Shown one piece after another: positions 13,397 to 57,832 of a stretch of 64,000 nt of DNA; positions within the stretch are counted from its first letter, which is position 1, and each line of letters begins with the position of its first letter. Under the pieces are notes generated by a model, which was not told the origin of the DNA, ran no database searches, and saw nothing but the letters and a program-made list of their open reading frames with translations. The position numbers were made by a program, and so were the translations under genes. Source of the stretch: Sulfurovum lithotrophicum (GTDB taxonomy: Bacteria > Campylobacterota > Campylobacteria > Campylobacterales > Sulfurovaceae); assembly GCF_000987835.1 (NCBI RefSeq), contig NZ_CP011308.1:1-64000 (forward strand), read 5' to 3'.

Positions 13397-13421
13397 AAAA
13401 TATGACAATATGACATATTTT
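13397..13421 (+). promoter_or_regulatory. 25-base palindrome upstream of comM, shared with recQ
   Basis: AAAATATG (13397-13404) and CATATTTT (13414-13421) are perfect inverted arms around a 9-base spacer. The centre follows TATGNCANTNTGNCATA. The same palindrome with the same spacer length stands 36 bases before recQ (55993-56017); here it is 35 bases before comM. It is a candidate operator for an unidentified dimeric regulator. Confidence 0.65.
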
Positions 13422-13442
13422 AAATCTCCAGTGCCTCTTTAT

Positions 13443-13454
13443 GTCACACTGTCA
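13443..13454 (+). promoter_or_regulatory. GTYACACTGYCA element two bases before the comM ATG
   Basis: GTCACACTGTCA ends two bases before the comM start. recQ has GTTACACTGCCA in exactly the same position. Neither gene has a Shine-Dalgarno sequence there. It may be a start-site or translation-initiation element belonging to the same control unit as the upstream palindrome. Confidence 0.5.
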
Positions 13455-13456
13455 CT

Positions 13457-15043
13457 ATGAATGCAAAAACGCATAGTGGTAATCTTCCACCAAAAACGGG
13501 AAAAGTCAAAGTTAAAGAGAAACAGCCGGCCATTGTCAATCACCTGACTTGTGCTACACTGGAGGGTGTGAATGCAAAGGTGATAGAAGTTGAAGCTACA
13601 TTTACAAAGGGATTGCCCGGTTTTTCCGTGGTCGGTCTGGCTTCCAGTGATATTCAGGAGGCGAAAGAGCGTGTCAAGTCCGCACTGCTTACCAACGAAT
13701 TTGTGTTTCCTCCTTTAAAAATAACGATCAATCTTTCACCAAGCGATATCAAGAAGAACGGCACCCATTTTGATCTCTCTCTTGCCCTGCTTGTCGCACT
13801 GAACAAAAAGGCTTTTGAGGAAGAGGGGCTTTTTGTCTTTGGAGAGCTGGGACTGGACGGCCGTGTGAAGAGTTCTTCCATGCTCTTCCCTCTGATTCTT
13901 TCACTCAAAGAGCAGGGGCTTATCAAAAGGGCGATCGTTCCCAAAGAATCCATAAGCTATCTGTGCCATATTTCCGGAGTAGATTTCATCGCTGTAGAAA
14001 CACTTTCCGAAGCTATTTCTCTGCTGAAAATGGGTGAGTTCAAAGCCAATGTCGAACAGTTCTCCTATGATGCCAAAAGTATTGAGATAGCCGGTATAGA
14101 CTATTTTTACGAAGAGCGATACGAGAGTGATTTTGCCGAAGTCAAAGGGCAGATGGTTGCCAAGCGGGCTGCGATGATCGCGGCTGCAGGCATGCACAAC
14201 TTCTTTATGGAAGGTAATCCCGGCTGCGGTAAAAGTATGATCGCCAAACGATTGAAAGACATACTGCCTCCACTGTATGAAGAAGAATTGCTTTCCATCG
14301 CAAAACATCAGTTCCTCGACGGACAGACCCCCAACTTTAAAGCGATACGCCCTATGCGATCTCCGCACCATACTGCTACCTCTGCTTCTATTTTTGGAGG
14401 CGGTTCCGGACAGGCAAAGATCGGTGAAGTGGCCTTGGCCAATTACGGTATACTTTTTTTCGATGAGATCCCCCACTTTTCCAAAAACGTACTTGAAGCG
14501 ATGAGGGAACCCCTGCAGGACAAGAAGGTACACATAGCCAGAGTCAATGCAAAGATAGAGTACCAGGCGGATATCATGTTTGTTGCGGCACAGAATCCCT
14601 GCCCCTGTGGGAACCTGCTTTCCAAGACAAAAGCCTGTCGATGTTCCGAGGTGGAGATCAAACGCTACCAGAACAGACTCTCCGATCCTTTTCTTGACCG
14701 TATCGATCTCTTTGTGGTAATGCAGGAGGTTGATGCTGATGACAAAGGTGATGTTACTTCCAAAGCGATGCATGAAGTGGTCATTGAGGCATTCAAGAAG
14801 CAGAAGGAGCGGGGACAGCAGAGATTGAATGGAAAACTGGCTGAGGATGAGATAGAACGTTATTGTCTGCTGAACGAGGCGGCAGGAAAGATACTTGAAG
14901 GTGCTATCAGTAAATTTGGGCTCTCGCATAGAAGTATTGCATCAGTAAAAAAAATAGGACGCACCATAGCCGATATCAATGGGCATGAGAAGATAGAGAA
15001 GAAAGATATACTTGAAGCGCTGAGTTACAGACGCCGGAAATAG
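13457..15043 (+). CDS. comM: ComM/YifB family Mg-chelatase-like AAA+ ATPase
   Basis: ComM is a hexameric helicase that promotes branch migration when donor DNA is integrated during natural transformation. The 528-residue protein has an N-terminal Lon-protease-like domain ('LPGFSVVGLASSDIQEAKERV'), then the AAA+ core with Walker A EGNPGCGKSM and Walker B 'GILFFDEIPHF', a cysteine cluster 'NPCPCGNLLSKTKACRC', and a C-terminal lid. It carries about 25 extra residues before the usual family start; no clear alternative start has a ribosome site, and the ATG used here is supported by the element shared with recQ. A REP-like palindrome follows the stop. Confidence 0.93.
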   Translation: MNAKTHSGNLPPKTGKVKVKEKQPAIVNHLTCATLEGVNAKVIEVEATFTKGLPGFSVVGLASSDIQEAKERVKSALLTNEFVFPPLKITINLSPSDIKKNGTHFDLSLALLVALNKKAFEEEGLFVFGELGLDGRVKSSSMLFPLILSLKEQGLIKRAIVPKESISYLCHISGVDFIAVETLSEAISLLKMGEFKANVEQFSYDAKSIEIAGIDYFYEERYESDFAEVKGQMVAKRAAMIAAAGMHNFFMEGNPGCGKSMIAKRLKDILPPLYEEELLSIAKHQFLDGQTPNFKAIRPMRSPHHTATSASIFGGGSGQAKIGEVALANYGILFFDEIPHFSKNVLEAMREPLQDKKVHIARVNAKIEYQADIMFVAAQNPCPCGNLLSKTKACRCSEVEIKRYQNRLSDPFLDRIDLFVVMQEVDADDKGDVTSKAMHEVVIEAFKKQKERGQQRLNGKLAEDEIERYCLLNEAAGKILEGAISKFGLSHRSIASVKKIGRTIADINGHEKIEKKDILEALSYRRRK

Positions 15044-55992: not shown

Positions 55993-56017
55993 AAAATATG
56001 TCATTTTGCCATATTTT
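55993..56017 (+). promoter_or_regulatory. 25-base palindrome upstream of recQ, shared with comM
   Basis: AAAATATG (55993-56000) and CATATTTT (56010-56017) with a 9-base spacer, the same arms and spacer length as at comM (13397-13421). A second shared element, GTTACACTGCCA (56040-56051), ends two bases before the recQ ATG, again exactly as at comM. Confidence 0.65.
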
Positions 56018-56053
56018 CTACTTCACTGAAAAGGAAGACGTTACACTGCCATC

Positions 56054-57832
56054 ATGAATAAACTGAAAACACTCGAAGACTATTTTGGACACAAGGCTTT
56101 CAGGCCGCTGCAGGAAGAGGTAGTGGATGCTATTTTGAACAGAGAGGATGTGCTGATGATCCTTCCCACGGGAGGGGGAAAATCACTCTGCTACCAGCTT
56201 CCCACACTTCTTATGGAGGGTGTGACGGTCGTGGTCTCTCCTCTTTTGGCGCTGATGCATGACCAGGTGGTCGCGTTGCGTGCCAACGGCATTCCCGCTG
56301 CCATGCTCTCAAGTATGCAGGACATGGAAGAAAGCCGGCAGATAGAGGGACAGCTGCATCGTGGAAAGATAAAACTGCTTTATGTCGCGCCGGAACGTTT
56401 GACCAATGCCTATTTCCTCAATATGCTGCATCAGCTTGACATCAACTTTTTTGTCATCGACGAAGCGCATTGCGTGAGTGAATGGGGGCATGAGTTCAGG
56501 GAGAATTACCGGCGGCTTTCGCTGCTCAAAGAGCAGTTTGCTACGACACCTATTGCTGCATTCACAGCTACAGCGACCAAGGCGGTGGAAGAGGATATAG
56601 CATCAAATCTTGGTTTGCAGAACCCCAAGCGTGTCAGAGGTTCTCTCTTTCGTGAAAACCTGACCATCCACTCCAGACACCGAATCAAAGACGGGCGTGA
56701 ACAGCTGCTGGAATTCCTGAAGTCGCATGAAGGGGAGTCCGGGATCATTTATACCCTCTCAAGAAAATCGACCGAATCGGTGGCCCATTTCCTGCAGAAT
56801 AAGGGTATAGAGGCAAGGGCGTACCATGCCGGTCTACCCACAGAGGAAAAGCATGCGACCTATAGTGATTTTGTGGCTGACAGGGTGCAGGTCGTCGTTG
56901 CGACCATTGCATTCGGTATGGGGATTGACAAAAGCAACATCCGTTTCGTGGTGCATATGACACTGCCTAAAACACTGGAGAATTTCTACCAGGAGATCGG
57001 ACGTGCAGGCAGGGACGGTCTTGAAGCGGAAACCCTGCTGCTGTTCTCCGCACAGGATATCGTACAGCAGAAGATGTTCATAGAGGACCTTCCCGAAACA
57101 CCCTACAAGCAGCATGCTTTCAACAAACTTGACAGTATGGTACGTTTTGCCAATTCGGAGAACTGCCGTCACCAGAGTATCGCCGCCTATTTTGACGATC
57201 GTATCGAAGTCTGCGGAACGAAATGTGACAACTGTACGACAACACAGAGTGAAAAGATTGACATTACGACGGCTGCACGGATGCTGCTTTCGACTATCCT
57301 GCGTACCGAACAGAAGTTTGGACTGCATTATGTGATCGATGTGCTCAGAGGAAGCAGGGAACAGCGAGTGCTTCAGAACGGGCACGATACTCTTTCGGTC
57401 TATGGCATAGGAGAGGAATACAGCAAGGCACAGTGGATGACCATCGGAGACAAGCTTCTGGAGCTCGGTGCGGTAGAAATAGGTGAGTTCAAGGTTTACA
57501 GATTGACGAACTTTGGTGTTGAGGTCATCAAGGGTGCACACAGCATCGAGTTGAAAAAAGAACGCCTGGCAGTCCAAAAGGCCAAGCCAAAACGCAAGGT
57601 CACCTATTTTGACGACTATGATGCCGAAGTGTATGACAGGCTCAGAGAACTGCGTACACAGATCGCATCGGAGAAGGGTATACCTCCCTACATCGTCTTT
57701 TCGGACAAAACACTCAAAGACCTTAGCAATAAACAACCGCAAACGAAAGGTGAGATGCTGGAGGTGCATGGCATAGGAGAAGTGAAGTTCGAGAGGTACG
57801 GAGAGGCATTTTTGGAGTTATTGACAGTGTAG
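56054..57832 (+). CDS. recQ: ATP-dependent DNA helicase RecQ
   Basis: RecQ unwinds recombination intermediates 3' to 5'. The 592-residue protein has Walker A 'LPTGGGKSLCYQLP', the DEAH box 'FVIDEAHCVSEWGHEFR', motif VI 'QEIGRAGRDG', a RecQ-C zinc site (Cys in 'ENCRHQSI', 'VCGTKCDNC') with winged helix, and a C-terminal HRDC domain ('YDRLRELRTQIASEKGIPPY', 'LEVHGIGEVKFERYG'). There is no Shine-Dalgarno sequence; the start is supported by the element shared with comM. The stop TAG lies inside a REP-like palindrome. Confidence 0.95.
   Translation: MNKLKTLEDYFGHKAFRPLQEEVVDAILNREDVLMILPTGGGKSLCYQLPTLLMEGVTVVVSPLLALMHDQVVALRANGIPAAMLSSMQDMEESRQIEGQLHRGKIKLLYVAPERLTNAYFLNMLHQLDINFFVIDEAHCVSEWGHEFRENYRRLSLLKEQFATTPIAAFTATATKAVEEDIASNLGLQNPKRVRGSLFRENLTIHSRHRIKDGREQLLEFLKSHEGESGIIYTLSRKSTESVAHFLQNKGIEARAYHAGLPTEEKHATYSDFVADRVQVVVATIAFGMGIDKSNIRFVVHMTLPKTLENFYQEIGRAGRDGLEAETLLLFSAQDIVQQKMFIEDLPETPYKQHAFNKLDSMVRFANSENCRHQSIAAYFDDRIEVCGTKCDNCTTTQSEKIDITTAARMLLSTILRTEQKFGLHYVIDVLRGSREQRVLQNGHDTLSVYGIGEEYSKAQWMTIGDKLLELGAVEIGEFKVYRLTNFGVEVIKGAHSIELKKERLAVQKAKPKRKVTYFDDYDAEVYDRLRELRTQIASEKGIPPYIVFSDKTLKDLSNKQPQTKGEMLEVHGIGEVKFERYGEAFLELLTV

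Follow-up and report, generated by a model that had tools for sequence, protein, structure and literature searches.

We propose that the palindromes in front of comM and recQ of Sulfurovum lithotrophicum are operators of an SOS regulon of a non-canonical kind: LexA is replaced by a CI/S24-type repressor, which also controls transformation genes. A second element in both promoters is interpreted as the -10 box of leaderless transcripts. We consider this explanation likely; binding, cleavage, induction by DNA damage and the transcription start are inferred. An autoregulated repressor and a common operator at recA and at repair and translesion genes, which together serve as the criterion for an SOS system, are both present as far as sequence evidence can tell. 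It is therefore probable by layout, not by experiment, that the network works like an SOS regulon, and no binding, cleavage or induction data are at hand.

The window, i.e. the whole stretch of 64,000 nucleotides that was analysed, comprises positions 1-64000 of a genome consisting of a single contig of 2,217,891 bases. A preliminary description had reported the two palindromes, their distances to the start codons and a second element directly before each gene, and all of this held exactly on direct reading. Both palindromes are exact. 35 bases lie between AAAATATGACAATATGACATATTTT and the comM ATG at 13457, and 36 bases separate AAAATATGTCATTTTGCCATATTTT from the recQ ATG at 56054. The identification of both genes as helicases, comM and recQ, also held, with matches to TIGR00368 (YifB/ComM) and TIGR01389 (RecQ) that are each above cut-off. 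ComM acts in branch migration during natural transformation. The inner pattern is better written as TATGNCA-N3-TGNCATA, a symmetric motif with A/T-rich arms, because the fixed T's of the earlier version cost one mismatch on the reverse strand. With up to three mismatches the comM and recQ sites are the sole two matches in the window, and 100 dinucleotide shuffles of the window yielded none. About 30 residues of ComM (window 13457-13560) precede its conserved part and the alignment begins later in several relatives, hence the start of this protein deserves checking.

Table 1. Positions of the palindromes, promoter elements and genes discussed in the text.
Feature	Position	Strand	Basis or remarks
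Putative operator ('SOS box') of comM, AAAATATGACAATATGACATATTTT	13397..13421	.	direct reading; genome motif family; relatives
Putative extended -10 element of comM, TGT-CACACT	13442..13450	+	sequence; relatives; hexamer 13445-13450 is -12..-7 if transcription starts at the ATG
comM/yifB, Mg-chelatase-like AAA ATPase	13457..15043	+	TIGR00368 (1.3e-127); PF01078, PF13541, PF13335
Putative operator ('SOS box') of recQ, AAAATATGTCATTTTGCCATATTTT	55993..56017	.	direct reading; genome motif family; relatives
Putative -10 element of recQ, G-T-TACACT	56040..56047	+	relatives; hexamer 56042-56047 is -12..-7 if transcription starts at the ATG
recQ helicase (DEAD, Helicase_C, RecQ_Zn_bind, RQC, HRDC)	56054..57832	+	TIGR01389 (1.1e-209)
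Candidate repressor gene, 217 aa	about 222873-223526, same chromosome, outside the window (L021:2874-3527)		PF07022 and PF00717
HTH-only paralog, 82 aa	match 251720-251956 (G000:C1; L275:715-963)	minus	33% identical to the HTH region of the repressor

Allowing three mismatches, the 25-mer was found at 19 sites in the 2.2-Mb genome versus one for a reversed-pattern control. The 17-bp core occurs in 11 perfect copies, and with at most one mismatch 24 times versus 12 times in the control. Nine of the 19 sites precede recA, ruvA, recG, recQ, radA, radC, comM, a Pol IV-like gene and the gene of a 217-residue repressor. The Pol IV-like (Y-family) gene remains below cut-off in the NCBIfam Pol IV models and is above that of PF00817. 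A weaker match with a one-mismatch core precedes dprA, which is identified by PF02481 (above cut-off) and TIGR00732 (just below). The other ten sites lack an obvious repair target; they neighbour a Y1 transposase, DUF2130, ORF6N-yraN, KTSC or unnamed genes, or have nothing within 150 bp, and uvrA is 400 bp away from one of them. Among the neighbours of the sites in this genome, not all of which could be named, no DNA-uptake gene was recognised. The neighbours of the 19 sites rule out a regulon of comM and recQ alone. Thus, where the preliminary description had seen an operator of two helicase genes, the regulon is wider, has an SOS-like make-up and includes a candidate repressor gene with the same box.

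A large gene 40 bp after the site at 2054901 (L435:2-1561, minus strand; one-mismatch core) looks like an epsilon AddB gene. Searches against Pfam, NCBIfam and PDB did not support this identity, and the site was consequently left out of the target count. One-mismatch cores near secA (900646) and inside genes (400135, 735528) are likely noise.

An 82-residue, HTH-only paralog of the 217-residue protein is also encoded in this genome, and its gene has a perfect copy of the core about 54 bp upstream. Lacking the cleavage domain, it is conceivable as a non-cleavable partner or competitor of the repressor. The arrangement of paralog and box is similar in G022 and G038 (L213, L227).

In 42 genomes of the same genus (our own included) 687 sites were detected versus 23 in the control, and in the 73 genomes of the family (f1) 910 versus 28. 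Together with the shuffles and the reversed-pattern control, these counts rule out a chance origin of the palindromes. Sites were annotated in three relatives of one or two contigs (G011, G038 and G022) and in one genome of another family (G109). In all three relatives a site is found at recA, the repressor gene, recQ, comM, recG, radA and dprA, and in two of the three at ruvA, the Pol IV-like gene, radC, the DUF2130 gene and nadK followed by recN (recN by eye). comM of G038 is broken by a stop, and its site was assigned from coordinates. An upstream box with at most three mismatches is present at 29/30 repressor, 29/30 recA, 27/30 recQ and 28/29 comM loci; L151, with too little upstream sequence, was left out of the comM scoring. 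The same test inside the genes gave no match in any of the four sets. Because each set consists of the best-matching loci, close relatives are favoured, with 27 (repressor), 28 (recA), 30 (recQ) and 28 (comM) loci from the same genus. The distance between box and ATG is 35–38 bp for recQ. For comM it is 34–36 in 24 of 28 loci, and the remaining values (32, 38, 47 and 59) stem from matches beginning later in the protein. The boxes, the genes behind them and their conservation are thereby shown directly.

The boxes that failed are those of the repressor gene in G001 and of recA in G026 (four mismatches each), of recQ in G021, G029 and G026 (six, four and seven mismatches, all three at the usual distance) and of comM in G021. 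Consequently, G021 and G026 seem to be in the process of losing their boxes; both possess the repressor, yet have two sites each and degenerate recQ boxes. Across family f1 the number of sites follows the repressor: the median is 15 in the 61 repressor-bearing genomes, and nine of the 12 genomes without a full-length hit have 0–6 (Mann-Whitney p = 2e-4, relatedness ignored). With these 12 of 73 genomes the co-occurrence is imperfect. G025, G055 and G064, which are drafts of 93–95% completeness, contain 12–20 sites despite the missing full-length hit. In genomes without a repressor hit the recA box is strong in G054 and weak in G051 and G059. No convincing box was seen in G004, G047 and G048, of the same family or genus and without a full repressor hit, at recA or at the comM and recQ starts that were read (best p = 0.02, comM of G047).

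The candidate repressor combines a phage-CI-type HTH (Phage_CI_repr, PF07022) with a Peptidase_S24 domain (PF00717, 2.2e-21). In 20 diverse members, 44–100% identical to it, PF00717 was found in all and PF07022 in 18, and the cleavage residues A97-G98, S138 and K175 are invariant in 20/20. A homologue with 94% identity was modelled with AlphaFold2; the model is of moderate quality (mean pLDDT 71), and its fold matches are the lambda and 186 repressors, LexA and UmuD'. Because its DNA-binding domain differs, the protein is not a LexA. The LexA winged-HTH domain PF01726 has no match in our genome, and of 200 Campylobacterota genomes four match at E <= 0.001, one of them over the cut-off. As a control, the same search was run on 14 genomes and recovered the domain in 10, including E. 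coli and B. subtilis. Domains, invariant residues and the absence of the canonical LexA domain are observed, and the function of the protein is inferred.

The best 80 of 404 named repressor relatives found are mostly labelled Sulfurovum or Sulfurovaceae. In GenBank, the phage proteins most similar to the repressor are those of phages infecting Campylobacter and Helicobacter, likewise repressors, with 31–38% identity. moeA is part of the repressor locus in 30/30 loci of the main set (27 of the same genus, three of other f1 genera), in 5/11 further f1 loci and in 0/24 of other families; a dksA-like gene is present in 25/30 loci of the main set. In a repressor tree, from which GenBank phage repressors were left out, the members of f1, f3, f5, f7, f14, f15 and f17 each group with good support. 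The four viral homologues fall into a separate clade together with one additional copy, from G078, and G105 (f19) and the second copy of G090 are long unplaced branches. The moeA/dksA-like neighbourhood and a tree that follows the host families, with the viral copies apart, rule out a recent prophage gene.

The second elements, GTCACACTGTCA (13443-13454) at comM and GTTACACTGCCA (56040-56051) at recQ, each end two bases before the ATG. With up to two mismatches the element alone has two matches in the window versus 1.44 expected, which is not unusual. Hence, its weight derives from conservation in relatives and not from rarity in the window. Counted from the A of the ATG, positions -12..-7 of recQ read TACACT in 29/30 loci and TAGACT in one, and G at -14 is found in 30/30. 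In comM the hexamer varies more, with A at -11 in 23/26, T at -7 in 22/26 and TG at -15/-14 in 15/26. The GNCA part was rejected as a signal since it is not conserved; just the hexamer and G(-14) are kept. SD-like sequences, defined as the tetramers AGGA, GGAG and GAGG, occur in -16..-4 in none of the 30 recQ and none of the 26 comM genes, and in this interval in 29/30 repressor genes. Within 30 nt, 4/30 recQ genes have one. For -16..-4 the previous statement that neither gene has a Shine-Dalgarno sequence held. Most likely, the second element is a -10 box and transcription of comM and recQ starts at the ATG, resulting in leaderless mRNA; this is inferred from sequence alone and the start site is unmapped. 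Of the two interpretations offered earlier, a start-site signal fits such a leaderless promoter, with the start itself inferred, and an unusual translation-initiation signal does not.

The gap between box and hexamer is 23–24 nt in most recQ promoters. Of 29 recA promoters, 14 have a clear TATAAT-like -10 element, and in 12 of these the gap is 23 nt; in 25/29 repressor promoters it is 14–15 nt. The gap classes are about one helical turn apart, with the box either covering the expected -35 region or lying directly before it.

Beyond f1, each family is represented by one to a few genomes. A full-length homologue with at least 39% identity was found in 10 of the 22 families sampled (120 relatives), namely f1, f3, f5, f7, f8, f14, f15, f16, f17 and f19. 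For a PWM, 13 of our 19 sites were used; six without a clear target (881965, 1102745, 1346541, 180841, 1005068 and 1263543) were left out, and the cut-offs of 14 and 12 were set after the scores had been seen. Outside the main genus a recA box scoring at least 14 is present in 14/33 repressor-bearing genomes, in 1/16 without the repressor and in 1/4 with a weak hit. The difference between the first two groups corresponds to a Fisher p = 0.009, with a post hoc cut-off and relatedness ignored. Just 12 of 20 diverse loci reach 12 at the promoter of their own repressor, and one of seven other-family genomes scanned has a comM box (G086).

Variant boxes at both recA and the repressor gene were observed in G076, in G078/G095/G109, in G086/G115 and in G090/G117 (repressor boxes of G078 and G115 by eye). 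The four best sites of G109 precede recA, Pol IV, comM and the repressor gene. By eye, the motif has drifted to ATTTCA-N3-TGAAAT in members of f5 and f19 and to TTAACA-N3-TGTTAA at the repressor gene in members of f14 and f17. TTAACAAATTGTTAA-like sequences were noticed at the repressor promoter in f14 and f17 members (L179, L182, L187, L440-L462). In 13 of 24 other-family genomes, belonging to six families, a Pol IV (Y-family polymerase) gene is divergent to the repressor gene.

According to the proposed mechanism, the 217-residue repressor would bind TATGNCA-N3-TGNCATA next to or over the -35 region. It would thereby keep expression low for its own gene, recA, comM, recQ, recG, ruvA, radA, radC, dprA, the Pol IV-like gene and others. 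Upon DNA damage, RecA filaments are predicted to make the repressor cut itself at Ala97-Gly98 by means of its Ser138/Lys175 dyad, which would release the genes. In this regulon, recombinational repair would be joined to the cytoplasmic part of transformation, represented by comM, dprA and radA. In comM and recQ the -10 box would be placed such that the mRNA begins at the ATG.

Three alternatives have to be considered, all of which we regard as unlikely. The palindrome could be the operator of another regulator, i.e. a stress or competence factor or the HTH-only paralog, with the S24 protein merely being one target. In favour of this, there are no binding data for the S24 protein, the paralog shares 33% identity with the repressor HTH region and has a perfect core box upstream, and three draft genomes hold 12–20 sites without a full-length S24 hit. 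However, the promoter of the repressor itself is boxed in 29/30 loci, and site counts in f1 track its presence (median 15 versus 0–6 in 9/12 genomes; p = 2e-4, relatedness ignored). Furthermore, the recA box drifts together with the repressor-gene box in other families, and the gene set fits a RecA-sensing repressor.

Alternatively, the genes might form a competence regulon instead of an SOS regulon, with the transformation state as the signal and the repair genes processing incoming DNA. The products of comM, dprA, radA and recA act in transformation, and in Helicobacter pylori competence genes are damage-induced in a RecA-dependent manner without LexA (PMC2912397). Against this, repair is the role of the Pol IV-like polymerase, recG, ruvA and recN, the S24 cleavage residues of the regulator are all intact, the regulator pairs with Pol IV in 13/24 other-family genomes, and no uptake gene was recognised beside the own sites (not every neighbour was named).

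Third, the second element could be an unusual ribosome-recruiting sequence and not part of a promoter. Its fixed spacing to the ATG and the missing nearby Shine-Dalgarno sequence would agree with this. However, the conserved part is the recQ hexamer at exactly -12..-7 with G at -14 and not the following GNCA, and an ordinary SD-like sequence precedes the repressor gene, a member of the same regulon, in 29/30 loci.

Very unlikely is an activator site, from which the protein would activate at about -48 and cleavage would turn the genes off. In its favour, the centre of the comM and recQ box is near -48, its end falls directly before the position expected for the -35, and lambda CI is able both to activate and to repress. 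However, the box at the repressor's own promoter is shifted by about one helical turn towards the -10 (gap 14–15 nt) and would overlie the -35, as for a repressor, and switching off recA and recG upon damage makes little biological sense.

The SOS reading has parallels in other phyla. The closest is the non-canonical CI-type S24 LexA of Bacteroidetes (NAR 2021, PMC8565304), which also combines an S24 peptidase with a phage-type HTH, conserves Ala-Gly and Ser-Lys, and shows drift of the operator motif between clades, as observed here. It runs a full SOS regulon of recA, recN and dinB, in some species with recG, recQ and radC, and has no significant BLASTP match outside Bacteroidetes (PMC8565304). 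The motifs differ (CTAA-N5-TTAG and GGA-N5-TCC there (PMC8565304), TATGNCA-N3-TGNCATA here), as does the HTH (PF01381 in Bacteroidetes (PMC8565304), PF07022 in Sulfurovum). Moreover, Sulfurovum belongs to another phylum and comM and dprA are included, and the Bacteroidetes system was tested experimentally whereas the Sulfurovum regulon is inferred. Francisella with FddR (PNAS Nexus 2026, PMC13148647) is likewise a LexA-less lineage with a chromosomal gene for a phage-type S24 repressor. The FddR gene rises on DNA damage and autoregulation was suggested (PMC13148647). In contrast, recA of Francisella is not induced (PMC13148647), whereas recA is a conserved boxed gene in Sulfurovum and the predicted regulon is larger.

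With the canonical LexA systems of E. coli and B. subtilis the proposed regulon shares the S24 domain, autoregulation, recA and repair genes as targets and an operator near -35. The canonical winged-HTH PF01726 is absent here, and the E. coli operator CTGT-N8-ACAG (PMC8565304) differs. HdiR of Streptococcaceae and UmuDAb of Moraxellaceae are S24 repressors that mainly control error-prone polymerases (PMC8565304) and resemble the repressor-Pol IV pair of the other families, but their regulons are minimal in comparison to the full recombination regulon of Sulfurovum. The CI-type repressors of Campylobacter and Helicobacter phages (see above for identities) have the same domain layout by full-length alignment. 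In contrast, the host repressors form a clade to which neither the four viral homologues nor an additional copy from the same order belong, and the host gene lies near moeA in 30/30 loci.

According to the literature, Epsilonproteobacteria do not encode a LexA ortholog, and a typical SOS response is missing in Campylobacter (PMC2390758); in C. jejuni, recA, uvrA and the ruv genes showed no induction by ciprofloxacin (PMC2390758). For Campylobacter lari, in which an S24 protein occurs, the existence of a complete SOS response was left undecided in a 2020 paper (PMC7118207). S24 'LexA-like' proteins of C. fetus were discussed in connection with prophages (PMC11424552). In the open-access literature, searched by titles and abstract openings without subscription papers or preprints, no description of the present regulon was found.

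The previous idea of a common operator and a new regulon is supported: the box is conserved in relatives and non-random genome-wide, and both outcomes that could have refuted it were tested. The accompanying statement that Campylobacterota lack a LexA-type SOS response holds for LexA itself, but in view of the SOS-like gene set and the boxed repressor gene it probably fails for the function. What appears to be new is thus that an S24-repressor SOS response, itself of known type, exists in a group so far considered devoid of it and extends to transformation genes; judged from sequence alone, we deem this likely. The result supplies a candidate repressor, an operator and a gene list. The inferred network probably ties DNA repair to genes handling incoming DNA. 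It also offers a candidate type of regulator for the link between damage and genetic exchange, which in H. pylori is RecA-dependent without LexA (PMC2912397). If true, it would add another example of an SOS response reassembled on the basis of a phage-type S24 repressor, and in this case the trait would be old and shared by several families.

A bolder reading, taken as one joint claim, has a slight edge over its negation in our opinion. An old chromosomal phage-type SOS repressor would exist in about half of the families of the order, with the repressor-Pol IV pair as the older form. In Sulfurovaceae this pair would have expanded into a full regulon, in which a single switch responding to DNA damage governs comM, dprA, radA and recombinational repair. 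The comM and recQ mRNAs would be leaderless, and the HTH-only, non-cleavable paralog may reset the system. That the repressor was overlooked would be explained by its not being LexA and by the drift of its operator, whose forms (ATGNCA, ATTTCA, TTAACA) have a CA-N3-TG core in common.

Further genes were noticed behind boxes. Y1 (IS200-like) transposase genes directly follow a box in our genome, in G011 and in G022 (L017:2610-3080; L166, L188, L193, L195, L205), the transposase of L188 being just 27% alike; damage-induced transposition is a possibility. A DUF2130 gene stands behind a box in our genome, G022 and G038 (L219, L238, L030), and a gene of the phage-integrase family does so in G038 (L226).
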